This document shows, piece after piece, positions 12,530 to 62,542 of a stretch of DNA of 64,000 bases (position 1 is the first letter of the stretch; each line of letters begins with the position of its first letter). The DNA lies in assembly GCF_020283565.1 (NCBI RefSeq), contig NC_060065.1, positions 29,252,409-29,316,408 on the forward strand, given 5' to 3'. The position numbers and the translations under genes were made by a program. The DNA is from Trifolium pratense. Lineage: Eukaryota > Streptophyta > Magnoliopsida > Fabales > Fabaceae. A model generated the notes under the pieces. That model worked only from the letters and a program-made list of their open reading frames with translations. It made no database searches and had not been told where the DNA came from.

Positions 12530-13646
12530 TGAAGGTGTGAAAACACAAGAAGGGGGGGTTGAATTGTGTTTTAGCTAAGTTAAAACTTTTTCAAGTTCTT
12601 AACTCAACTACGTTAGCAGCGGATAAATAACACAAATAATAACAAGAGAGAGAGAGAGAGATCACACAAGCAATTTATACTGGTTCCTCTCACAAAACGA
12701 GAGTAGTCCAGTCCCCTTGCACTTCCAAGGGATTTCACTATAATCACACAAGATTACACCTGCTCAAGCACACAAGCAAGAGACTTCTCAACAATGCTCA
12801 AGCACACAAGCTTAAGACTTCACACTTAAGCACACAAGCTTAAGAATTCACACTTAAGCACACAAGCTTAAGTTTCCTCAAGTAATAGTAAAGTATATGA
12901 AAATATACAAATGCTCTTAGATGAACCTAAAGAGAGCAAATACGAATAGTACAGAGTATTTGACTAAAGTGCAAAAACACTTAACAGAGGTTCAGAGCTT
13001 GTATATCACAAAGTTCAGAGGTTGTTCAGCGCACGTTCAATCCTTAATAAAATTGTATATGTTGTAGCTGATTCTTCTAGTATATATACCACTAGAAAAG
13101 AGTCGTTGCAAAAAGAACCGTTGGAGTTGATAAACTTTTGTCTTCAAGCAGTCTGTCTTGATGCAGATTGGTTGTATCCAAAACTAAGAAAGAGTTGCAG
13201 GTACTTTGACTACTGCAGAGAAGACTTTCCTTATTCAGCTAACAAGTCTGAAGACCCACGTTCTCAAAAGAGAACAGACAAAACAAGAGTAGCTGAACTG
13301 ATCAGGCTTGAAAGGTCCTTTTCTTCATTGGTAGAAGAGTTGACTTGCAAAGGGAATCTTTACAGCTTTCAAAAAGATCTTCAGAGGTTGATGAAGCTTT
13401 AGTCACTTAAGAAGTTCTGAAGACTTCATCATCTGAAGGTTGTAACTTCTGAAGTCCAACATCTTCTGAGCGCTTATGAACTTCTGAATTCACATCCTCT
13501 GAGCTTCACTCAGAGCTTATCTGATGCTTATATCTGCGCACTTAAAATAAATTTTTAGTCCTTCCAATTGTTTATTAATACTTTGTTATCATCAAAACCT
13601 TTATAGATTTAGGGGCAAACATTTTTAAATCAATTTTGTTCCAACA
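12530..13646 (-). repeat. 5' LTR of element A
   Basis: Same length (1117 bp) and, by eye, all but two bases identical to 1441-2557. It contains the same AAGCACACAAGCTTAAG tandem block and TATA-like quasi-palindrome. It is followed by the GAGGG target duplication and the interrupted third ORF of element B. Confidence 0.93.
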
Positions 13647-15908: not shown

Positions 15909-17788
15909 TGATGCACCTAAAAATATGCTATTTATTTAGTTAATTTACTATTATATTTTAATTATTTTTATTTTGATTCCGAAGTTTTATATTATGAATT
16001 GTTACTTATTTCTCGTATTTTAAATAAACAGATAAAAATTGCACGAGTTGAAGAAAGGAGCGAAAACGGACCAGAAAGGAGCAAAACCGGACAAAAAGGG
16101 CCACACACGTGCAACCAATTGGGCCACACGTGTGCAGCCCACTCAAAAGCAATGCTGCCCGCCAGCAAGAAGCAAATGGCGCCCGCCACATGCACACATG
16201 GCGCCAGCCATGTGTTTCTTCACCCTCGCCACTTCCTTTTCATCATGGCCGTCCATCAGATCAAACGGTGACGCGCTATTCAGCTAAAAGTCCCACATCG
16301 GCCAAATTCTGTCTTTTCCTCCTTGTATTTTAGTATAAATAGGCTAGTTCTCTTCACTCAAAAAAAGATAACACTTGACTTGGAGAATTGAGAACTAGGC
16401 TTAGTACCACAAGGTTTTCTTCTCTAAAGTTGAGAGTTTAGTATTATTTTATTCTCCGTTGAGAATAAAATAAGTTTTTTTTTATTTTCCTACCGTTACG
16501 CTGTCGGATTCTGTACTCAAGATTTCTTTTTAATTCAGGTTCTTATTTTATTTTATGGTCTTATTTATTTCTTGTCTTTATTTTATTGCTTTTATTTTAT
16601 GCTTTTAATTTCTGCTTTTATTTTTATTATGTCTTTTTATTTATTTGCTTATTTTATTTTTATGTCTTTAGTTTTAGTTATGTCTAGCTAAATTAGCGTT
16701 GCTAGGATGTGTAGTTAGTAGCTAATAGGGGTTCGGTAGTTAATTCGTGCTTAATAGTTTTCAACCACCAGTTTTAAATAAATACGTTATCAAATAATTC
16801 GTCACGAGAGTGAGGATTGTTTCAAAGGCAATAAACCAACATTGACGAGAGTTGAGGTTTAGGGTCGGATAGTTAAAACTGACCGTTAGTTCTAAAGTCC
16901 GCGAGAGCTATTTAGGATTAATGAGTTTTATATTGGTTTTCAAAGGTACTTAAATAGGTAAGTGAGTGTGTGAGAGCTGAGCATTTATTTTATCTAAGTA
17001 TAACGCTAGTCAAGATTTGCGAGAGCTGAGATTAGTGTTTTTAAACCAAATATAATTCTTGAAAACTGACAACGGTTTTATTTTCTTAAGCAGTTTTTAA
17101 TTAAGCGTTGATTATAATTCGTCACGAGAGTGAGAATTAATTAAAGTAAAAATCAATAGAGCGAGAGCGTGAGATTTCTACTAGATAGTAAAAACTGAAC
17201 ATTAAATCTAATTCGCAACGAGAGTTGGGATTAGAGTTAATTAAATTATATTGTTTTTCAAAAAGTATTTTATTAGCGGGTGTGAGGACGAGAGTTAAGC
17301 ACCACCTTTATAATTTATAATACGATCTGAATTGTATTTTTAAAACAATATAGTTTCGAAAATTTAATTGTTTACACCACTAAAATCTAGAAGTAATGCA
17401 ACTACTTTGTAAAGTATTTTATTAATTTCATGATGAGAGTTGTGAGAGCTGGAAGTGAGAACGGCTTTTCGCCTGGAGCATCGATTTTATTAAAATACGA
17501 CGATTAGATGTGGTAGTAATTTTGTCTAGCGCGAATTAGGTATTGAACCCTCTGAAGCAACTAATAGCACGTCCTAGCAATATTTTATTTACATATTAAA
17601 AATCTAAAAAATATTTATTTCTCTTATTTTAGTTATTCATTTAATCATAACCCTTTAAATCATTAGCCTTAGATTTACAAAGCAACACTAGAATACGGTA
17701 GGTCGATTATTGGTCCTTTGGGTTCGATATCTTTTAAAACTACACGACACGACTGTATACTTGCGGTCATTGTCGCGTCACACGATCA
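15909..17788 (+). repeat. 5' LTR of element C
   Basis: 1880 bp, apparently identical to 22107-23986. The first 450 bases hold an 8-bp-stem palindrome around CACATGGCGCCAGCCATGTG (16196-16215), and CACACGTG motifs lie just upstream. From about 16800 to 17460 it carries a loose array of about ten CGAGAG/TGAGAG motifs. Confidence 0.95.
16290..16341 (+). promoter_or_regulatory. Candidate promoter in element C LTR: USE-like box plus TATA box
   Basis: GTCCCACATCG at 16290-16300 exactly fits the plant snRNA upstream sequence element (RTCCCACATCG). It is followed 33 bases later by TATAAATA at 16334-16341. The same pair recurs in the right LTR near 22488-22539. That TATA is the transcription signal is inference from position. 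Confidence 0.6.
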
Positions 17789-22106: not shown

Positions 22107-23986
22107 TGATGCACCTAAAAATATGCTATTTATTTAGTTAATTTACTATTATATTTTAATTATTTTTATTTTGATTCCGAAGTTTTATATTATGAATTGT
22201 TACTTATTTCTCGTATTTTAAATAAACAGATAAAAATTGCACGAGTTGAAGAAAGGAGCGAAAACGGACCAGAAAGGAGCAAAACCGGACAAAAAGGGCC
22301 ACACACGTGCAACCAATTGGGCCACACGTGTGCAGCCCACTCAAAAGCAATGCTGCCCGCCAGCAAGAAGCAAATGGCGCCCGCCACATGCACACATGGC
22401 GCCAGCCATGTGTTTCTTCACCCTCGCCACTTCCTTTTCATCATGGCCGTCCATCAGATCAAACGGTGACGCGCTATTCAGCTAAAAGTCCCACATCGGC
22501 CAAATTCTGTCTTTTCCTCCTTGTATTTTAGTATAAATAGGCTAGTTCTCTTCACTCAAAAAAAGATAACACTTGACTTGGAGAATTGAGAACTAGGCTT
22601 AGTACCACAAGGTTTTCTTCTCTAAAGTTGAGAGTTTAGTATTATTTTATTCTCCGTTGAGAATAAAATAAGTTTTTTTTTATTTTCCTACCGTTACGCT
22701 GTCGGATTCTGTACTCAAGATTTCTTTTTAATTCAGGTTCTTATTTTATTTTATGGTCTTATTTATTTCTTGTCTTTATTTTATTGCTTTTATTTTATGC
22801 TTTTAATTTCTGCTTTTATTTTTATTATGTCTTTTTATTTATTTGCTTATTTTATTTTTATGTCTTTAGTTTTAGTTATGTCTAGCTAAATTAGCGTTGC
22901 TAGGATGTGTAGTTAGTAGCTAATAGGGGTTCGGTAGTTAATTCGTGCTTAATAGTTTTCAACCACCAGTTTTAAATAAATACGTTATCAAATAATTCGT
23001 CACGAGAGTGAGGATTGTTTCAAAGGCAATAAACCAACATTGACGAGAGTTGAGGTTTAGGGTCGGATAGTTAAAACTGACCGTTAGTTCTAAAGTCCGC
23101 GAGAGCTATTTAGGATTAATGAGTTTTATATTGGTTTTCAAAGGTACTTAAATAGGTAAGTGAGTGTGTGAGAGCTGAGCATTTATTTTATCTAAGTATA
23201 ACGCTAGTCAAGATTTGCGAGAGCTGAGATTAGTGTTTTTAAACCAAATATAATTCTTGAAAACTGACAACGGTTTTATTTTCTTAAGCAGTTTTTAATT
23301 AAGCGTTGATTATAATTCGTCACGAGAGTGAGAATTAATTAAAGTAAAAATCAATAGAGCGAGAGCGTGAGATTTCTACTAGATAGTAAAAACTGAACAT
23401 TAAATCTAATTCGCAACGAGAGTTGGGATTAGAGTTAATTAAATTATATTGTTTTTCAAAAAGTATTTTATTAGCGGGTGTGAGGACGAGAGTTAAGCAC
23501 CACCTTTATAATTTATAATACGATCTGAATTGTATTTTTAAAACAATATAGTTTCGAAAATTTAATTGTTTACACCACTAAAATCTAGAAGTAATGCAAC
23601 TACTTTGTAAAGTATTTTATTAATTTCATGATGAGAGTTGTGAGAGCTGGAAGTGAGAACGGCTTTTCGCCTGGAGCATCGATTTTATTAAAATACGACG
23701 ATTAGATGTGGTAGTAATTTTGTCTAGCGCGAATTAGGTATTGAACCCTCTGAAGCAACTAATAGCACGTCCTAGCAATATTTTATTTACATATTAAAAA
23801 TCTAAAAAATATTTATTTCTCTTATTTTAGTTATTCATTTAATCATAACCCTTTAAATCATTAGCCTTAGATTTACAAAGCAACACTAGAATACGGTAGG
23901 TCGATTATTGGTCCTTTGGGTTCGATATCTTTTAAAACTACACGACACGACTGTATACTTGCGGTCATTGTCGCGTCACACGATCA
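22107..23986 (+). repeat. 3' LTR of element C
   Basis: Same 1880 bases as 15909-17788, with no difference noticed. It is followed by the GAACA target duplication and then element B's integrase coding sequence. Confidence 0.95.
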
Positions 23987-42330: not shown

Positions 42331-42560
42331 TTTAGAGAAGTGATAAACATGATCATCATCAACTGACATTCCACCTTTACCCATTTTTCTTAATCACTCA
42401 AACTATTCTCCAACCTCTAATTTAGAAGCTTGATATTAGAGAAGTGAGGTTTTTGCACAAACTAGCTTTCATATTCAGGGACTAGGGTCATTAAGTTCAT
42501 CCAACATTTCCAACGTATGTAACATTTGGGACAAGGGTCATTAAATTCATAATGCAAAAT
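42331..42560 (-). pseudogene. Second copy of the SDH exon 1 start and 5' flank
   Basis: ATAAACATGATCATCATCAA through CCCATTTTTCTTA matches the start of SDH exon 1 (40511-40555). The following 5' flank (AACCTCTAATTTAGAA, AACTAGCTTTCATATTCAG) matches 40575-40730. It is truncated at its exon end by the copia LTR. It has a few small differences, so it is a duplicate and not the same copy. Confidence 0.8.
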
Positions 42561-45500
42561 CAATTCTAAAGCCACCATCCTATTTTTCTATTATGAATAA
42601 AGAATTCATAATGCATTTTTCTCAAAGGTCACTGAGGCATCCAACCCTTACAAAACTTTTCCATTAATTGCAGTTGCATAATTGAATTTAGGAACTAAGG
42701 GTCATCAAAGCAGAATCTGTACCCATTCATGCATTAATATTGATAAAAATTCAGAATATTTTTAATAGAAAAGCGGAAACCTATATAGACAATTGCTTGA
42801 GTAGCAATTAAGGCAACAACTAGCTTTCACATTCAGGAACTAGGGTCATTAAGAATATGTCTCCATTCATCCATCTCTATGAATAAAAAAAAATTAATAG
42901 AAAAGTGGACACCAATTGAGACAATTGCTTGTGTAGCAATTAAGGCAACAACTAGTTTTCATATTCAGGGACTAGGGTCATTAAGAATATATATTCATTC
43001 ATGCATCACTATGAATAAAAATTCATAGTTTTTTTTAATAGAAAAGAGGACATTGATCGAGAAAATTGCTTGAGTAGCAATTAAAGCAACAACTAGCTTT
43101 CATATTCAGGGACTAGGGTCATTAAGCTCATCCAACATTTCCAACGTATGTAACATTTGGGACAAGGATCATTAAGTTCATAATGCAAAATCAATTCTAA
43201 AGCCACCATCCTATTTTTTCATTATGAATAAAGAATTCATAATGGATTTTTCTAAAAGGTCATTGAGGCATCCAACCCTTACAAAACTTTTACATTAATC
43301 GCAGTTGCATAATTGAATTTAGGGACTAAGGGTCATCAATGCAGAATATATACCCATTCATGCATTACTACGAATAAAAATTCATAATTTTTTAATAGAA
43401 AAATAGGCACCGATAGAGACAATAGCTAGAGTAGCAATTAAGGCAACAACTAGCTTTCACATTCAGGGACTAGGGTCAATAAGTAATTTATCCAACATTT
43501 TTTAGGCATCAAGACATCCAATCCATTAAAAAATTTGAAATTTCACTTTTTATTGATGCAGAAATTTGGAAGTATTTGAATAATCAAGAATGAAAAAATC
43601 GAAAACCCTTCATTGATCATTTCCAATAAGTATTGATTATAAACCAATAGGCAGAAGATTGAAAGTTTTTGGGACAAAACGCGTTTCTTGAATTAAAGTT
43701 TCCTGTTTTCAAGCAGAAGATTGAATGCTCTTCCAATTTAACAAAATTGTGTCCACAACCATATCACAACCACAATTGCACCGGCACCTGTCACATTTTT
43801 CTGCAGTACAAAGGTTTGCAGCATAACCGCAACCTTGAACGTAACCATGCAAAGGATATACTTTGAGAAGTTGTGAATTTTTCAACAAACCTGATTAGCC
43901 AAGGAACCATAAACTGGTGGAGTAGCAAAAACCATCATCTCAGGGCAAAGATTATATCGACTAAGTTTGCAATGTTCACAAGGCCAACAGTTGATCCCAG
44001 GCTCGACGGCCACACGGTCACCAGGCACCAAAGTCTGTACCTGACTACCGACTTCTTCTATGATCCCAGCACACTCGTGACCAATAGCCATCGGTTCTTT
44101 AACCATAAAATCTGCACATCTCATTGTCTTAAAGTAATACAAATAATCCAATAAAAATTGAAACTGTTTACTAGACAGAACATGGATAAGTGCAGGAAAT
44201 AACAGAATACAGATTATGTTGGAAACTGAAATCGGATTTATATTTTTTTGTCGAATATTGAAATCGGATGTAACGGTAACAATATCTACCTTGAGGTACT
44301 GAATATCACTCCCACAGATTCCAACAGCTATCATTCTAATTCTGACATCATGCATGGGGTCCTTCAAACATAAAAAATTTAGTAAGCCAATGATTTAACG
44401 TAAATATTACATTTGGATTCTTTGCAGTCGATTAATGACAAAGTTGGCACAATCAATGTACTCGGAGTCAGTGTTGTTGAATACGGCCGATGGCACCACC
44501 ATAGCGTGACAGATTTTTGGTCAACCGCTATAGGTGACGTTGCCACATTGGTGTGGTTGGCAGATTTTTGGCCTTCGGCAATCTGCCGCCGATGAAAATT
44601 CCCAAAGTTCAACTTTCAATTTGAGTTTATTGGATATGTTTTGTCAGTGTAAATTAATGTTACACCGACATCCAATAAGAATCAACCAGTTCTCCACATC
44701 ATATCATTAAAATGGGATGTAGTCGGGTAATTTGGTAGAATACATGGTTGCTATTAGAATCTTGAACATGTATATCATACCAGTAGTGACAGTTTCACAA
44801 TTACGGTCATAAAAAGACAACTGACACCATCCACATTTTGAGTAAAATTTCATATTAAAATTGCTTTGCTTTGAAAGCTAACATCGAACTTTTCCATTAT
44901 GAATAAAGAATTCATAATGCATTTTCCAGAAAGGTCATTGAGGCACATACCCTGCAAAACTTATGTAACATTTGGGACAAAGGTCATTAAGTCCATAATG
45001 CAAAATCACTTCTAAAGCCACCATCGAACTTTTCCATTATGAATAAATAATTCATAATGCATTTTCCTCAATGGTCATTGAGGCATCCATCCCTTACAAA
45101 ACTTATGTAACATTTGGGACAGGGGTCGTTAAGTCAATAATGCAAAATCACTTCTAAAGCCACCATCCAACTTTTCTATTATGAATAAAGAATTCATAAT
45201 GCATTTTCCTCAATGGTCATTGAGGCATCCATCCCTTACAAAACTTATGTAACATTTGGGACAAGGGTCATTAAGTCAATAATGCAAAATCACTTCTAAA
45301 GCCACCATCCAACTTTTCAATTATGAATAAAGAATTCATAATGCATTTTCTTCAACGGTCATTGAGGCATCCATCCCTACAAAACTTATGTAACATTTGG
45401 GACAAGGGTCATTAAGTTCATAATGCAAAATCACTTCTAAAGCCATCATCAATTAAGAATTCATGATGCATTTTCCTCAAAGGTCGTTGAGGCATGCATC

Positions 45501-48500
45501 CCTTACAAAACTTATTTAACATTAGGGACAAGGGTCATTAAGTTCATAATGCAAAATTACAATTGCAGTTGCAAAATTGAATTTAGGGACTAAGGGTCAT
45601 CAAAGCAGAATATATATCCATTCATGCATCACTATGAATAAAAATTCATAATTTTTTTTAATACAAAAGCTGACACCGATCGAGACAATTGCTTGAGTAG
45701 TAATTAAGGCAACAACTAGCTTTCATATTTAGGGAATAGGGTCATTAAGAATATATATCCATTCATGCATCACTATAAATAAAAATTCATAATTTTTTTA
45801 ATACAAAAGCAGACACCGATCGACACCATTGCTTGAGTAGCAATTAAGGCAACAACTAGCTTTCACATTCGGGGACTAGGGTCATTAAGAATATATATCC
45901 ATTCATGCATCACTATGAATAACAATTCATAATTTTTTTAATAGAAAAGCGGACACCAATCGAGACAATTGCTTGAGTAGCAATTAAGGCAACAACTAGC
46001 TTTTATATACGGGACTAGGGTCATTAAGAATATATATCCATTCATGCATCTTTATGAATAAAAATTCATAATTTTTTTTAATAGAAAAGCCGACACCGAT
46101 CGAGACAATTGCTTGAGTCGCAATTAAGGCAACAACTAGCTTTCATATTCAGGGACTAGAGTGATTAAGTTCATTCAACATTTCCAACATATGTAACATT
46201 TGGGACAAGGGTCATTAAGCTCATAATGTAAAATCAATTCTAAAGCCACCATCCTATTTTTCCATTATCAATAAAGATTCATATTGCATTTTTCTCAAAG
46301 GTCATTGAGGCATCCAACCCTTCAAAACTTTTCCATTAATTGCAGTTGCATAATTGAATTTAGGGACTAAGGGTCATCAAAGGAGAATCTGTACCCATTC
46401 ATGCAATATTATGGATAAAAAATCAGAATATTTTTTAATAGAAACGCGGACACCTATAGAGACAATTGCTTGAGTAGCAAATAAGGCAACAACTAGCTGT
46501 CACATTCAGGGACTAGGGTCATTAAGAATATGTCTCCATTCAAGCATCACTATGAATAAAAATTCATAATTTTTTTAATAGAAAAGCGGACACCAATCGA
46601 GATAATTGCTTGAGTAGCAATTAAGGCAACCACTAGCTTTCATATTCAGGGACTAGGGTCATTAAGAATATATATCCATTCATGCATCACTACGAATAAA
46701 AATTCATAATTTTTTTTAATAGAAGAGCAAACACCGATCGAGACAATTGCTTGAGTAGCAATTAAGGCAACAACTAACTTTCACATTCAGGGACTAGGGT
46801 CATTATGAATATGTCTCCATTCATGCATCACTATGAATAAAAATTCATAATATTTTTTAATAGAAAAGCGGACACCAATCGAGACAATTGCTTGAGTAGC
46901 AATTAAGGCAACAACTAGCTTTCATATTCAGGGACTAGGGTCATTAAGTTCATTCAACATTTCCAACATATGTAACATTTGGGACAAGGGTCATTAAGCT
47001 CATAATGTAAAATCAATTCTAAAGCCACCATCCTATTTTTCCATTATGAATAAAGAATTCATATTGCATTTTTCTCAAAGGTCATTGAGGCATCCAACCC
47101 TTACAAAACTTTTCCATTAATTGCAGTTGCATAATTGAATTTAGGGACTAAGGGTCATCAAAGGAGAATCTGTACCCATTCATGCATTATTATGGATAAA
47201 AAATCATAATATTTTTTAATAGAAACGCGGACACCTATAGAGACAATTGCTTGAGTAGCAATTAAGGCAACAACTAGCTGTCACATTCAGGACTAGGGTC
47301 ATTAAGAATATGTCTCCATTCAAGCATCACTATGAATAAAAATTCATAATTTTTTTTAATTGAAAAACGGACACCAATCGAGATAATTGCTTGAGTAGCA
47401 ATTAAGGCAACCACTAGCTTTTCATATTCAAGGACTAGGGTCATTAAGAATATATATCCATTCATGCATCACTACGAATAAAAATTCATAATTTTTTTGT
47501 ATAGATGAGCAGACACCGATCGAGACAATTGCTTGAGTAGCAATTAAGGCAACAACTAGCTTTCACATTCAAGGACTAGGGTCATTAAGAATATGTCTCC
47601 TTTCATGCATCACTATGAATAAAAATTCATAATATTTTTTAATAGAAAAGCGAACACCAATCGAGACAATTGCTTGAGTAGCAATTAAGGCAACAACTAG
47701 CTTTCATATGAGGGACTAGGGTCATTAAGAATATATATCCATTCATGCATCTTTATGAATAAAAATTCATAATTTTTTTTAATAGAAAAGTTGACACCGA
47801 TCGAGACAATTGCTTAAGTCGCAATTAAGGCAACAACTAGCTTTCATATTCAGGGACTAGGGTGATTAAGTTCATTCAACATTTCCAACATATGTAACAT
47901 TTGGGACAAGGGTCATTAAGCTCATAATGTAAAATCAATTCTAAAGCCACCATCCTATTTTTCCATTATCAATAAAGAATTCATAATGTAAAATCAATTC
48001 TAAGGCAACAACTAGCTTTCATATTCAGGGACTAGGGTCATTAAGAATATATATATATATATATATCCATTCATGTGTCACTATGAATAAAAATTCATAA
48101 TTTCTTTTAATAGAAAAGCAGACACCGATCAAGACAATTGCTTGAGTAGCAATTAAGGCAACAATTAGCTTTCATATTCAGGGACTAGGGTCATTAAGTT
48201 CTTCCAACATTTCCAATTGGTATATAACATTTGGGACAAGGGTCATTAAGTTCATAATGCAAAGTCAATTCTAAAGCCACCATCCTGTTTTCCCATTATG
48301 AATAAGGAATTCATAATGCATTTTTCTCAAAGGTCATTGAGGCATCCAACCCTTACAAAACTTTTCTATTAATCACAGTTGCATAATTGAATTTAGGGAC
48401 TAAGGGTCATCAAAGCAGAATATATATACATTCATGCATCACTATGAATAAAAATTCATAATTTTTTTAATATAAAAGCAGACACCGATCTAGACAATTG

Positions 48501-48610
48501 CTTGAGTAGCAGCTTGAGTAGCAATTAAGGCAACAACTAACTTTCATATTCAGGGACTAGGGTCATTAAGATTATATATCCATTCATGCATCACTATGAA
48601 TAATCACATT
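42440..48610. repeat. 140-bp tandem repeat array with a higher-order period of about 780 bp
   Basis: The phrase TTGAGTAGCAATTAAGGCAAC recurs about 19 times. From 45691 successive copies are spaced 140, 140, 140, 357, 140, 141, 141, 359, 140, 142, 141, 140, 328 and 360 bases. A related monomer (CTTCTAAAGCCACCATC) repeats every 140-142 bases at 45009-45433. Most monomers carry a short hairpin such as ATTATGAAT-AAAGA-ATTCATAAT. The monomer matches the 5' flank of SDH exon 1, so it may have expanded from there. Two SDH fragments are embedded or adjacent. It is not coding. Confidence 0.9.
43891..44363 (-). pseudogene. SDH copy 2: exons 2 and 3 only
   Basis: Exon 3 (44127-43891, 237 nt) is intact: TMRCADFMVKEP, GHECAGIIEEVGSQV, GDRVAVEPGINCW, then Cys-rich CEHCKLSRYNLCPE as expected for the structural zinc. 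Exon 2 (about 44363-44292) carries a CATG duplication near its start that shifts frame. The copied segment runs from about 43745 to 44760, parallel to 39020-40030 of copy 1. It ends inside the small MITE. Exons 1, 4, 5 and 6 are absent at this site. Confidence 0.9.
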
Positions 48611-50940: not shown

Positions 50941-54760
<3,820 letters not shown>

Positions 54761-54839
54761 GGGCTGCTAACCTTTTCAGTTAGACCAAAATACCCATTCT
54801 TTTTATTTTTGACAAAGTATAGCAACAGGGACATATATG

Positions 54840-55200
54840 TAATTTACATGATAAAAACACGCGCCCCCCATACCATTTCACCAAATCAGTTTCACGCGCC
54901 CCAAAATAATCTAATCAACGCGCCCCCAAAATAAACTCATCGCAGATCCAACGAAAACCACCATCATCATCGCAACCACCGTCCACCGTCACGATTCAAC
55001 GAAACCATCATCATCATCATCGCAACCACCATCGTTCTCTTTAATTTCAGAGAATCAACGATTCAACGAAACCATCATCATCATCATCATCATCGCAACC
55101 ACCATCAACATCACAATTCAACGATTCAACGAAAACACCATCAACATCATCATCGCAAACACCAGAAACGACCATCACGATTCATTCAATCTCCTCCAGA
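54840..55200 (+). repeat. GC-rich CGCGCCCC repeats and CAT-rich tandem block
   Basis: ACGCGCCCC occurs three times at 54858-54926. Then three or four units of about 55 bases follow, built on ATTCAACGAAACCATCATC and CGCAACCACCATC with variable (CAT)n runs. Position and composition suit a MULE subterminal/promoter-proximal region; this is inference. Confidence 0.7.
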
Positions 55201-55432
55201 CAACATACGGTATCCCTTCCATCTCTTGTATCTGTAATTCTATTTCATTTTTGTTCTGAATCTGAACTTTAATTGTGCGTTTTTTATTTTATTTATGAAA
55301 TTGTGTTTGTGTCTTACTATGAAACCATTTTGCTAATATAATGGTTTCATTCAATTGGGTTTACCTATGGTTTGGATTACGGTTTTGAAGAATTAACAAA
55401 AGTCAGGGATGAATAAATACTAGTCACTGATA

Positions 55433-56300
55433 TTTGGATGAAACCATTGTGAATGTAGAATGGTTTCACTGATATTTGGATAAAATTATATAATAAATAA
55501 TCACTGATATTTGGAGTCCTAATGGCTTTTTGACTAAGTTGTGAATATTTTATACTGATATTTGGATGAAACCATTGTGAATGTAGAATGGTTTCAGAGA
55601 GTTGTACTCTGAAACCATTATACCAGCAAAATGGTTTCTGAAACCATTATACCAGCAAAATGGTTTCAGATAGTTTTTCACTTGTGTTTTGCTTCATCAA
55701 TAGTAAACTAGATGCATATTCAGTTCATATTATTTTATCCTCTTTTATCATTTTTAGTTGTATCTTTATTTTTCCAGGGCAGTTCATGGTGATGTTGTTG
55801 TTTTTTATTTGATAATCTGTTCACAAGAGACTAGAATTTGTTATAATAATTGTTGGTCAAATATGATCATGCTATTTGAGAATAATTTCAATATCTTTAG
55901 TAGAATAAGTTTGGCTTACAGCAACTGGATTTTTGGGTCTTGTCAGGCTGTAGATTTTGTGTCTTAGAGAGTACTCAGGCACCACAATCCCACTTTTTTC
56001 CTGAGAAATTCATAAGAGCCTAAAACTGAAGCTTAAATCAAAAGACCACAAAAACAACATAATCTATTAACTACTGTGGAGTTGGATGAAACCATTGTGA
56101 ATGTAGAATGGTTTCACTGATATTTGGATAAAATTATATAATAAATAATCACTGATATTTGGAGTCCTAATGGCTTTTTGACTAAATTGTGAATATTTTA
56201 TACTGATATTTGGATGAAACAATTGTGAATGTAGAATGGTTTCAGAGATTTGTACTCTGAAACCATTATACCAGCAAAATGGTTTCAGATAGTTGATACA
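55433..56300 (+). repeat. Direct duplication upstream of the Ulp1-like gene
   Basis: About 210 bases at 55433-55640 (GATATTTGGATGAAACCATT, then TAATAAATAATCACTGATAT and GGAGTCCTAATGGCTTTTTG) recur at 56083-56290 with few changes. Each copy includes three of the inverted motifs. Confidence 0.85.
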
Positions 56301-56315
56301 GCAAAATGGTTTCAG

Positions 56316-56397
56316 ATAGTTGATACATTTTATTTGTTCTGTTTTATGCTTTTTTTTGTGATGATTTTTGTGATGGTATAATGGTTGAGTTCTTATT
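56316..56397 (+). repeat. 82-bp segment shared with intron 2 of the Ulp1-like gene
   Basis: Sequence running from GATAGTTGATACATTTTATT through GATGGTATAATGGTTGAGTT is repeated almost unchanged at 58514-58597. One copy is upstream of exon 1 and one is in intron 2. Confidence 0.85.
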
Positions 56398-56439
56398 AAT
56401 TTGTTATGTTTTAGGGTGAAAACATTTAAGTACCTAGAG

Positions 56440-59400
56440 ATGGTAGATCCACCAACCTTCAGTCTCGGGTTGACAGCTTCGGATGAGGAGAAAGGGAATG
56501 CTTCATCATCTGGTGCTGAGGCAAATGTAAAGCATAAAGGAAAGCAAAAAAAGATGAGAAGAAAGTAAGTGATAAAGTGAGGAAAGATAACGATGCCGAT
56601 CCAAGATTGAGGCACAAGCTTAGCATACCTAAGGTGTACGACATTATGCAATTGATAGAAGGAAAAACAAGGAAAGATGAGATAGTTAAGGAACTTACCG
56701 AATGTGGCTTTGGAGGAATGAGGTATATATGTAATTGGACAAAGATTCCTACCTTCTTTGTGGATTGGATAGTAAAAAGCTTTGAAAAAGAGCACATGTG
56801 GATTAGACTGACAAAGACAAAGGTACTCCCTTTGAGAGATGATGATGTACATCGAGTGTATGAGCTACCAATGGCGGGGAAGGAAATTAACTTGGATCTT
56901 TGTTCTGATGGAGCTATAAGGAGACTAAGAAGAGAACTAGGATTGGGTGGGGATAGTTCTCCACATGTGAAGGTGAGTGATTTGGAAAGCAAATTGAAGA
57001 CGATCGAGCATCCAAAAGCATGGGTTAAAGGGGCAATCTGTTATATCATTCACAATATTTTGTGCCCCACTAATCATAGTGGTGTATCACTACAATATGC
57101 ACAAATATTGGAGGATCCAGCCGGCGTGTCATCGTACAATTGGTGTTCATATGTTCTTCAATATATGAAAGAAGGTTTGCAAAATCCGATTGTTGCAAAT
57201 CCATTAGCCGACTTCCATTTCCTCATGGTAATATTTCTATACCTTACTACTTATATTTTTTTTGGATAACAATTAACAACTTGAACATTTTTGGACCACT
57301 ATAGTTAGTTTTACACTCAATACTGTGATTAGGAAGATGGTTTTGAATTCAACAAGTGTAAATTGATATGATAGTGATAATGGTAGTCCTAGTCTAGTAA
57401 TGTAAACACAAATAGGAAAAATGGTTTTGAATTCAACAAAACATTACTCAGATATTATACTCATTCATAAACTTTGTTGATTTTGTAACAAACTCATGAG
57501 CTTCTAAATAGTATGATTCAGATGCAATTTTACCAAGTTTATGATGAATTCCTTTGTTTAAAATTGGATGACACTGACTATGAAACCATTTAATTGTGAT
57601 AATGGTTTCAGTGTATAACGCTATGAAACCATTTAACAAGAAAAATGGTTTCATTAAAATAATAGATTTGTTGTTGTGACTGTTGTGATGTTTTTACACA
57701 TTTTGACGCTGTAAAAGATCTCGACACAGTTGATTTGAAATCAGACGGTTATGGCACGAAAACTCATTCCCTCAGTTCATAGTAATTTTTTTATAAGTTT
57801 ACTTATTTTTTATTCACTAGATAGAGAAAATCTAGTGATACATACATTCTTGTTTTGCTTATTTCCGACGACTGTTAATGTCTCTATCTTTTAAACATTA
57901 AACTGGCTATGAAACCAATTAACTGTGATAATGGTTTCAGTGTATAACGCTATGAAACCATTTAACTAGAAAAATGGTTTCATTAAATTAATAGTTAAAA
58001 GCTAGGATGTAGGATTCCTAATATCTCTTTTAAATCATCCTATAAACAAACATAAAAAGAAAGATATAAGGCTAATTTTTTAAATTATGTATGCGATTTA
58101 TTGTGTATTCCCAAATCAGTCTCTTTTTATTGTTGATGTTTTTATCATGCTAATTTATTGTGCAGATTAATTATATGGAAAAGATGGGGAAGAAAAGCCC
58201 ATTTCTGACCGGGAGATACAAACGACCCTCACTTCGTGATTGGGACGTAAAGACGGCAACCCAAGATATTCAAAAGGTCCACGACGTTATGGGACTCGAG
58301 TATGGATTGACAGCCGGTGTAACCACATTGAACAACACTGATGAAGTGCCACTCGTGCTATGCTTTGATACAGATACTTGTCCATTGTCTGCGGTGAGTG
58401 AAAAATAAAGATAGAAATTAAACAATTAAGGAATATTAATGTGGAAACCATTAATCTTGCTAAATGGTTTCAATAAGCTATACTCTGAAACCATTATACC
58501 AGCAAAATGGTTTCAAATAGTTGATACATTTTATTTGTTCTGTTTTATGCTTTTTTTTGTGATGATTTTTGTGATGGTATAATGGTTGAGTTCTTATGAT
58601 TTTGTATAATTATTAGTATTGTGAACCCAGTTATGTTAATAATTATTTGTATACAGGCACCGATGCATCTTAATCACTGTAGGTCCTGTATAATGGTCTA
58701 CAATAGAGCTGCTGAAATATTGGAAAGAAGGTTAGCTGAGGGTAAAGATGGGGCAGATGAACAAAAAGTTGGAAATGAGCAGGCAAATATTGATGCAGGG
58801 TAAGTAATGACTAGTATTTTGTTTCAGTTTTTTTTTTAAATATAAGTAGTTTCAGTAAGTTATATACTGAAACCATTAGTCTTGATAAATGGTAGAATAT
58901 TAAGGAATATTATAAAATTTATATTTTGTAGAATATCCTTAGATAATATTCTAACATCTTATACCATATCTTTAACACTTGTTTCAGGATGGAGAAAAAT
59001 GATGAAAATGCCGATGAGAAGAAGGGTGAGAAAAATGATGAAAAGAAGGATGAGAAGGATGACAAGAAGGATGACAAGAAGGATGTCAGATGTGGAGCTG
59101 ATGAGGGAAATGTTGGTAAAAAAAGTCTAAGGTATAAAGCATCAGTTAAAAGAAGAAACAATACTGCAGATGATGAGGAAGCAGATGATGGGCAAGGACC
59201 ACAACCACCACTCTCTGTTACACAAGAAACAATACTGCAGTATCCACAGTATTTTGATGCATCATCAGAATACTATAAAGAAGTTGTTGTAGAGTAAGAA
59301 GCAACAGTTGCTTTATATGAAATGATTTCATTATACTAATAGATTTTTTTGAAACAGATATACACAAGACCAACTTTTAAACATTAAAATAGCTCTGAAA

Positions 59401-61524
59401 CCATTTAACTATGATAATGGTTTCGGTGTATAACGCTATGAAACCATTTAACTAGAAAAATGGTTTCATTAATTAAATTCTCCACAATTCTGCAAAATAA
59501 CAGCTATGACATTTATTTGGCAGGGCAACTCCGTTAAGGACGGTGTTGGTTGATGAAATCATTGACTTGAGTCAAGAGGACACTGTTAAGCCAACTAGAG
59601 TGAAGAGGAAGAATGAAAAGGAGGATCGCACATATCCTGAACGTAGACGAGCTGTGAAGAAATCAAAGTACCTTACAAGCCCATATGATACTACTATCTA
59701 CGAGTCAACTGCAACTAAATTGCAGAAGGATATATGCACCTATGCATGGAGCAGTTCAATTGATGAGTAAGTCAAAATCATTTTAAAATATTGTGATTAG
59801 AATAGGTGACTACAAATCCTAACTGCTTAATAATTATATAGGGAGGAAATTCTCTACTACTCCAAATCACATGACTTCTCTCTACAACGGAAAGAGTTAT
59901 GGACTCTAAACAAAGATGAATGGATCAGTTGCTTTGTTGTAAATAGTTGGGTAAATTACTTGAATTGGAGGCAACGAAAAGGACAAATGACAAGGCTTGT
60001 TACACGATATATCAATCATGTACGGATTATATTCCATGAATATTAATAGTTTACTTACTTTTAAGTTTTTTTGGAATTGATTTTACTCATTTCATATAAA
60101 CAGCAATACATGGAAAGACCGGATGCACTGGAAATAGAGCAACCAGCTGCTTTCAATAACTTCATTGCAAGACTGAAATGGTTCAAGTACATGGATTGGA
60201 AGAAAATTGACCCTACAAGTCTGGAATACGTAAGTCCTTCCCCGACTATTAGTTGCTTTAATTATGAAAAAGTCTATTAAATGTCAATTGTGTATAATTA
60301 ACCAAACTAATGGGTTAATTATTGAAGTCATTTAACAACACTAGTGGTTTCGTTGGATATACTAGTGGTTTCATTGGATATGTTATACAATAAAACCATT
60401 AATCTTGTTAAATGGTTTCAATAAGTTATACATTGAAACCATTAGTCTTATTAAATGGTTTCAATATCTTACGGTTTAATCTTATGGTTAATTAAAGGTA
60501 ATCTTTACCAAGTTCTAATTAATACATTTAAGTAATCAGTTCTGGTTATGCATCTAGTTTAGTTAAACACTTGCAATTGTAGTACCTTCTAATTAAAATT
60601 ACAGTTTAGATGTGGCAATAAGTAAGTACATAAATCATTGCTAATAAACCTTAGATTTAGGGGCTAGCTGTGAGTCTTCTGATTCAGGGAAAAAAAAGAT
60701 GTTTATTCTTGTTTCTAGTATGATATATTTTAGTTTACATGTCTTAGATTTTACATGTTATTTGTACTTTGTTAACTCAAACTACGCCACTTTTAGGGTG
60801 CAAGACCCAACCTAATATATTAAACTATTAGGTTCAAACTTCCATTTTGTTCCTTTTTTTTAAGTTACTAAAATATATCATACTAGAAACTTCCAGTTTT
60901 GTGATTCTTTCAGTGTTTAAAAAGTTCAGGCAAACTTCCAGTTTGAGTTATCTGCTCAATTTTGTTCCATTTTTTTAAGCATCCTAATATATTTTGTGTG
61001 CTTTTAAACAGATCATGACGCCCGTATTGATTGGCAATCCAGGGAGTCATTATGTGTGCTTTGTTGTCAATTTGAAAAGCCACAGATTCCAATTCCTAAA
61101 CAGCATGTATGGAGATAAGTTGGATTTGGACCCACCAAATATATACAAAAAGATGTTTGATGTATGGTTGAAGGAGGTGAATGCATTTCTTATAGGATTG
61201 TATACTCATAAAAAAATGCCATTGCCTTTCCACTTTAGCAAATTTAGTTGGGAATCTCCAAGAATGCCAACTCAAATTGATAAAGACAATTGTGGAGTCT
61301 TCTGCATGAAGTTCCTTGAAGAATGGCAAGGTGACCATTACACCCAAATGGAGTCTTTCAAAAATTGGAGCCAACTCGGAAAGCGAGACAAAATTGCAAG
61401 GGTGATGGACTTCAGAATTGGGATATTGTCCACAATTTTAACCGACTCCAGCAATTCAATAAGACAAAAAGTGGAAAAGAATGCAACTTCTTACTGTGAA
61501 GAACTGACTCAAAAGCTAGGATGA
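56440..61524 (+). CDS. Ulp1/C48 cysteine protease-like gene, eight exons, likely MULE-borne
   Basis: Exons: 56440-57227, 58166-58393, 58657-58799, 58988-59293, 59524-59766, 59842-60019, 60104-60229 and 61012-61524. All introns are GT-AG and phases match. The N-terminal part (KLSIPKVYDIMQLIEGKTR, ADFHFLM) resembles the head of transposon-borne plant Ulp-like proteins. Exon 4 is Lys/Asp/Glu rich. The catalytic domain spans exons 6-8: WISCFVVNSWVNYLN, then His in GSHYVCFVVNL, Asn in FLNSM where Ulp1 has Asp, Gln in TQIDKD and Cys in DNCGVF. Ulp1 enzymes remove SUMO-type modifiers. A7 at about 56541-56547 breaks the frame between the first ATG (56440) and the long frame; a later start is possible. 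Confidence 0.8.
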
Positions 61525-62542
61525 TGTCTGAATTTCTGAATTTGAATTTCTGGATTATGTATAACTAATGTAGTTGTTTAAAGGTTGTTGGAGGCTGCAA
61601 TGTGTTGCTTTAGTAAAGGTTGTTTGAATTTCTTACTAATGTAGTTGTTTCAGATTGAGGTTGTTTGTGTTTGTGTCGGGGACTGCCGTCTGTCACACAC
61701 ATAGTTTCAATGGTCAAATTTGAGCATGTCTTTTTTTTTTACTAAAGTTTGGGGGTGGTATTTACTGGTTTTGGAATAAGTGCACTTTGTTACAACTCTT
61801 GATAGTTGCTTGCTTAACAGAATTTACTATTATTTTTTGCCACTTATAATTAGTATTTTCGCTCTTTTTGATATATTCTGAACCTCTTATATCTTCTCTC
61901 TTTTCTGTCATTAAAATATATAACTCTTTCTTTTTAACTATTAGGTTAATGAAACCATTTTTCTAGTTAAATGGTTTCATAGCGTTATACACTGAAACCA
62001 TTATTACAGTTAAATGGTTTCATAGCATTATACATAATTTTAGTATTTATTTTAGCTACAACCATTATTACAGTTAAATGGTTTCATAGCTAGTTTAATG
62101 TTTAAAAGCTAGTCATGCTAGTCATGGGTATATCTGTTTCAAGAAAAACGTATTACTTTAATGAAACCATTTTTCTAGTTAAATGGTTTCATAGCGTTAT
62201 ACACTGAAACCATTATTACAGTTAAATGGTTTCATAACATTATACAAAATTTAACAGCATACCAAAACATTAACATCATATTCATATTCGGCCAATTAAA
62301 AAAATAACACTTGAACATATTATGATACCAATAAAACAAACTTTAACATCTCATTACATCAATTAAAGAGAACTATAAGACTAGTTAATGAAAAGCAACT
62401 TAGTACTTTTATCCAATGATATAGTCAACACTATATCATTGTATTATAGCTACTACTCCCACACCAGAAAACATGAAACACATCTCTGTTGAATTACTAT
62501 CATCACTTTTATCCATTACATCCTCGAAGCCTTTTTTGACTA
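61525..62542. other. Convergent 3' region between protease and transposase genes
   Basis: Both genes end toward this 1-kb gap. It holds the inverted-motif cluster at 61949-62240 in the opposite orientation to the copies in the protease introns. No frame is visible. Poly-A signals such as AATAAA-like strings are present but not diagnostic. Confidence 0.6.

Follow-up and report, generated by a model that had tools for sequence, protein, structure and literature searches.

VANC proteins of the Arabidopsis VANDAL transposons contain DUF1985. They bind short motifs of the element that encodes them, which thereby loses methylation; these motifs occur in its introns, between its genes and in its terminal non-coding DNA, and spread by tandem repeats (PMC5735166). 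The VANC21 motif YAGTATTAY is a non-palindromic 9-mer found in one-orientation arrays, and the VANC6 motifs are AGTTGTCC/AGTTGTAC (PMC5735166). KIU is a VANC gene with a captured Ulp1 domain that is reported to act in this way on its own motifs (PMC13317346), and in KI-MULEs the ULP domain is opposite in orientation to the transposase (PMC2528002). Among the Mutator-like elements (MULEs), VANDAL forms a group separate from FAR1/Jittery, and a FAR1 domain is given for Jittery (PMC6446971). We analyzed a 64-kb stretch of red clover DNA (Trifolium pratense, NC_060065.1; hereafter the window), where 25 copies of a palindrome with a fixed 10-bp gap lie in and around an Ulp1-type gene, next to a FAR1-type MULE transposase gene. 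Since its genes, their orientation, the distribution of the motifs and the dynamics of the repeats match these systems, we read the palindromes, with a probability of about 0.6, as the predicted target array of a VANC-like dimeric anti-silencing protein encoded by the surrounding gene, on a FAR1-type Mutator-like transposon.

Geometry, placement and copying of the palindromes

A search of the window for GAAACCATT-N10-AATGGTTTC, allowing for up to three mismatches, yielded 25 copies between 55321 and 62233, where an initial annotation had counted about 24 between 55318 and 62240. Nineteen copies are exact, three have one mismatch, one has two and two have three, whereas the whole window, dinucleotide-shuffled 100 times, contained 0.08 copies on average and 2 at most. 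This enrichment as well as the following gap statistics were computed within the 64-kb window. The arms are inverted as described initially, although not limited to the 9 bases proposed: in 24 of the 25 copies the left arm is preceded by T, and in 22 the right arm is followed by A, extending the arm to 10 bases. The ten-base half-site is TGAAACCATT, the opposite-side half-site being written AATGGTTTCA. With at most one mismatch per half-site, 22 pairs converge at a gap of 10 and none at gaps of 0–9 or 11–36, in line with the invariant spacer length noted before. At larger gaps, one pair was observed at 37, one at 39 and nine at 53, the latter because they represent the outer half-sites of two adjacent palindromes. 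Divergent half-sites lying within 60 of each other are separated by a linker of 15 in nine cases and of 1, 19, 40 and 44 once each, bearing out the 15-base linker and the 43-base period reported earlier. The resulting nine double modules, each consisting of two palindromes and a 15-bp linker, take in 18 of the 25 sites, and three of the nine are inverted. Half-sites are spaced 19 bp apart and the dyads of a double module 43 bp apart, close to two and four helical turns, respectively. One module linker (55596–55610) contains the VANC6 AC-type motif AGTTGTAC, probably a coincidence, as the other linkers listed lack it. The individual sites are:

55321–55348, single palindrome, exact, in the 5′ non-coding stretch
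55440–55467, single palindrome, exact
55568–55638, + strand, double module with 15-bp linker
55640–55667, third palindrome, a 29-bp tandem copy 1 bp past the module at 55568–55638
56088–56115, single palindrome, exact
56216–56286, + strand, double module, first palindrome with one mismatch
57582–57652, - strand, inverted double module, intron 1
57911–57981, - strand, inverted double module, first palindrome with one mismatch, intron 1
58444–58514, + strand, double module, intron 2
58869–58896, single palindrome with decayed right arm, three mismatches, intron 3
59397–59467, - strand, inverted double module, intron 4
60324–60351, single decayed palindrome, three mismatches, intron 7
60392–60462, + strand, double module, first palindrome with one mismatch, intron 7
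61951–62021, + strand, double module, between the convergent genes
62058–62085, single palindrome, two mismatches, between the convergent genes
62163–62233, + strand, double module, between the convergent genes

None of the 25 palindromes overlaps a coding exon, and none of the eight exons of the gene model is hit, as the initial annotation had stated for the Ulp1-like gene. All seven non-coding stretches of at least 188 bp hold at least one palindrome, so that seven of nine stretches are occupied; the two short introns 5 and 6 (75 and 84 bp) hold none. Eight palindromes are located in the 5′ stretch (putative start at 55204), four, two, one and two in introns 1–4, three in intron 7 and five in the intergenic region. 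The palindromes thereby display the distribution known from VANC motifs, with many copies in the non-coding DNA of the element and exons kept free.

Self-comparison of the window revealed copied blocks, mostly of 75–105 bp and in both orientations, as well as a direct duplication of 242 bp (55434–55675 and 56082–56321; 96% identity). Together with the double modules, these blocks correspond to the local repeat formation by which VANC motifs multiply. The variability of the spacers reported initially is real, with 15 distinct sequences among the 25 sites, but the spacers are not fully free: several are relatives or reverse complements of one another, because modules were copied as blocks in both orientations. 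Over the nine modules, the mean identity was 98% for the arms, 75% for the linkers and 63% for the spacers. A minimum spanning tree placed 6 changes on 288 arm positions versus 42 on 280 other positions (Fisher p = 1.2e-8), a contrast that is large even though the tree is a simple one and the test assumes independent positions. A few tandem duplications of one segment, named at the outset as an origin of all copies that would refute the observation, are partly borne out by the block copying, but copying without selection would leave unexplained why the arms are fixed while spacers and linkers drift.

The same geometry was observed in white clover (T. repens). For this comparison, the palindrome was translated in three frames with gaps of 0–30 and searched against 55 relatives, the evidence hence coming from proteins and reporting on codons rather than bases. 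Five translated palindromes were detected in four of the 55 proteins (P0022 twice, P0042, P0043, P0045), all with a gap of 10, and none at the other 30 gaps; the proteins added by a second relative search, which are included in the 55, gave no gap-10 match. Translated palindromes were likewise absent from 120 FAR1-family proteins, and shuffled proteins gave 0.003 per shuffle. The four white clover models run past the exon end ...SLEL into the following intron, the same intron that holds the window sites at 60324–60462, and P0022 contains a complete double module with the 15-base linker kept. As the endings of P0042, P0043 and P0045 are nearly the same, these hits amount to at most two independent white clover sequences. 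The four proteins are 40–61% identical to the window protein over 29–50% of the query. Medicago P0015 ends after the same exon with ...SLEYDGFE and is too short to count.

The Ulp1-type gene and the adjacent transposase gene

The genes next to the array and the presumed left end of the element are:

56440–61524, + strand, VANC-like gene with eight coding exons and a frame shift near 56565, defined by splice signals and tblastn with P0002
62653–64000, - strand, 3′ part of a FAR1-type MULE transposase gene that continues past the window (SWIM domain, E 6.9e-10)
54759–54941, + strand, presumed left element end following the (AT)51 tract, with CACGCGC at 54858 and 54893

The Ulp1-type gene model, comprising exons 56440–57227, 58166–58393, 58657–58799, 58988–59293, 59524–59766, 59842–60019, 60104–60229 and 61012–61524, was derived from splice signals and agrees with tblastn of the red clover homologue P0002. 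Its closest named relatives are the red clover proteins P0001 (95% identity over 53% of the query) and P0002 (89% over 99%), both with an unbroken reading frame. A weak match to DUF1985 (E 2.1e-4) lies in the first exon, and one to Peptidase_C48, the Ulp1 protease (E 6.1e-8), in the last. Among 41 relatives, 17 match DUF1985 (best 3.7e-4) and 11 match Ulp1 at E ≤ 0.01. For the predicted structure of the Ulp1 part, all ten matches with E ≤ 0.001 are Ulp1/SENP proteases, including yeast Ulp1. For the full protein, the mean predicted local distance difference test score (pLDDT) was 46, residues before position 520 scoring low, and for P0171 it was 38; only the Ulp1 part was modelled with sufficient confidence. 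A profile search of solved structures returned three matches with E-values of 0.036–0.35, the top two being low-complexity. Exon 4 contains tandem repeats (58986–59085), and the middle region is rich in Lys, Glu and Asp in the relatives; the exon 4 repeats correspond to the tandem peptide repeats in the variable region of VANC proteins. The C-terminal Ulp1 domain on the + strand, opposite to the transposase gene on the - strand, reproduces the KIU arrangement. Several white clover relatives (P0008, P0010, P0011, P0013 and others) are recorded as ‘1-aminocyclopropane-1-carboxylate synthase’, apparently a propagated annotation error.

The Ulp1-type gene and the transposase gene are arranged tail-to-tail. 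The transposase relative P0051 (95–99% identity) contains FAR1, MULE and SWIM domains and a weak zinc knuckle, a red clover relative, P0052, is 95% identical over 87%, and a FAR1 domain is present in P0051, P0062 and P0052. The domain combination of FAR1/Jittery (FAR1 and MULE with SWIM or CCHC) is found here with SWIM in the window and FAR1 and MULE via P0051; the FAR1 part of the window gene itself lies beyond the window edge, and the class is assigned from the domains of relatives. In the red clover model P0003, exons of the Ulp1 gene are joined to 179 residues with 97% identity to the transposase; the Ulp1 gene and the C-terminal half of the transposase, which converge in the window, are fused there on a single strand. 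This fusion suggests that the two genes travel together, and P0003 may be either a rearranged copy or a gene model bridging two separate elements. We infer that the Ulp1-type gene and the FAR1-type transposase gene belong to one element. A perfect (AT)51 tract occupies 54657–54758, immediately 5′ of the presumed left end. No partner of this end was found within the window, the right end being located beyond the window edge.

Elsewhere in the window, two direct repeats of 1880 bp with 100% identity (15909–17788 and 22107–23986, about 6.2 kb apart) resemble the long terminal repeats (LTRs) of a retrotransposon of very young age. A second pair of 1117 bp with 99.8% identity (1441–2557 and 12530–13646, about 11 kb apart) is probably the LTR pair of a further young retrotransposon. 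The region 42460–48603 comprises several satellite-like blocks of tandem repeats of about 140 bp that are 75–92% alike.

A candidate anti-silencing array and its alternatives

VANC21 and VANC6 share with the clover system a repetitive variable region and non-coding motif arrays that spread with repeats, and their DUF1985 has a weak, sub-threshold counterpart in clover; binding and demethylation are shown for these two proteins and predicted for the clover protein. The resemblance extends to the KIU/KAONASHI MULEs, where a DUF1985-like gene ending in an Ulp1 domain likewise lies opposite to the transposase and is accompanied by its own non-coding motifs, although those elements are MULEs of the VANDAL group without terminal inverted repeats (non-TIR) and the clover transposase is FAR1-type. 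With FAR1/Jittery MULEs, the clover element shares a transposase carrying FAR1 at the N-terminus and SWIM or CCHC at the C-terminus, but the table row for that group lists one open reading frame and no DUF, PMD or Ulp1 partner (PMC6446971). The initial annotation knew of no named family with this layout and thereby overlooked the VANC anti-silencing systems, which have the same architecture; for the dyad geometry itself, no named match was found in the literature passages compared. Literature searches for VANC with Trifolium returned only papers that are unrelated by title, and the matches listed for AATGGTTTC as a transposon palindrome were bacterial by title. Work by Sasaki (2022, EMBO J) reportedly describes a helical periodicity of VANC targets; it is also said to give KIU motif sequences and their layout, possibly including a dyad motif. 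Taken together, the clover system may work like a VANC system, with the dyad layout and the FAR1-type carrier being new if confirmed.

As a mechanism, we propose that the array would be bound by the protein of the surrounding gene, which would combine a DUF1985-like region and an Ulp1 domain in the KIU layout. The protein would bind as a dimer, with one subunit per TGAAACCATT half-site. As 43 bp, or about four helical turns, separate the two dyads of a module, four subunits could sit along approximately the same face of the DNA. Bulk binding over introns and intergenic DNA would then remove silencing marks along the element, and the Ulp1 domain may take SUMO, or a tag related to it, off silencing proteins. 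The modules would multiply via local copying, while selection would hold the arms and the 10-bp gap and the spacers would drift.

Several observations weigh against a VANC-like target array, in addition to the assumptions of the Fisher test and the nature of the white clover evidence given above. The adjacent transposase is FAR1-type, and the transposase trait of the VANDAL group was not found. The gene copy in the window carries the frame shift near 56565. The DUF1985 score of 21.7 bits is below the Pfam cut-off of 35.1, and no DNA-binding fold was seen, because the DUF1985 part gave no usable model. Unlike the VANC21 motif, the clover site is an inverted dyad with a 10-bp gap, often doubled at 43 bp, and its modules occur in both orientations; the one-orientation array, a trait of VANC21 that is lacking in clover, may or may not define the family. 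Finally, related Arabidopsis VANCs differ in their motif, whereas the clover arms are the same in relatives with 40–61% identity. On account of the dyad layout, the FAR1-type transposase and the arms common to diverged proteins, we do not file the clover system as a VANDAL.

Alternatively, the DUF1985/Ulp1 protein or a host factor could bind the array as an ordinary enhancer or intronic regulatory element without any anti-silencing role. The eight palindromes in the 5′ non-coding stretch would suit such a function, as would a palindrome usable in either orientation, and arm conservation is silent on what the bound protein does. Five palindromes, however, are located downstream between two convergent genes, and the domain layout is that of VANC/KIU, where, for VANC21, removal of silent marks rather than activation has been argued (PMC5735166); we thus consider an ordinary regulatory array unlikely.

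The palindromes could also be internal sites at which the FAR1-type transposase of the element binds, either for transposition or to regulate itself, a possibility that we regard as rather improbable. The transposase gene lies 420 bp past the last palindrome, and FHY3 and FAR1 are reported to form dimers (PMC6000157). Yet the palindromes lie in introns and intergenic DNA and are not confined to the element ends. Moreover, FHY3/FAR1 bind CACGCGC according to the same source (PMC6000157), a motif that the window contains only at the presumed left end and that is missing from the palindrome, an argument that bears on FHY3/FAR1 and not on the element's own transposase.

A hairpin or foldback unit, either a passively copied miniature repeat or a small-RNA-producing stem, is very improbable: modules were indeed copied in both orientations, and the five modules, out of nine, that were folded as RNA were far stabler than shuffles (z -4.7 to -7.9), as is expected for any palindrome, but passive copying predicts equal drift while the arms are far better kept than spacers and linkers, and the RNA hairpin was rejected despite its good folds since compensatory arm changes were found in none of the six altered sites and spacer pairing inside modules was no better than for random spacer pairs (3.3 versus 4.2 of 10). 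The kept arms, the lack of compensation and the lack of excess spacer pairing favour base-specific DNA recognition over an RNA stem. Among the explanations initially offered, a dimeric DNA-binding site therefore fits best, the copying of a small unit is real and the foldback RNA is disfavoured.

Returning to the VANC-like target array, we advance a broader version more tentatively, with somewhat more doubt than conviction: the locus would represent VANC-type anti-silencing on a FAR1/Jittery-type clover transposon, the protein of which would read a dyad whose halves stand a fixed 10 bp apart. The dimer geometry would set recognition, the double dyad would serve as the copying unit and the site would be common to clover species while the spacers turn over. 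Anti-silencing would in that case have moved to, or re-arisen in, a second Mutator branch. Sequence-specific transposon anti-silencing has been worked out in the Arabidopsis VANDALs, and the legume case, if true, would show that this strategy is not bound to VANDALs. It would also provide a clean geometry, in which 19 bp separate two half-sites and 43 bp two dyads, for studying the way in which a VANC-like protein recognizes DNA, as well as a compact target for epigenome editing.

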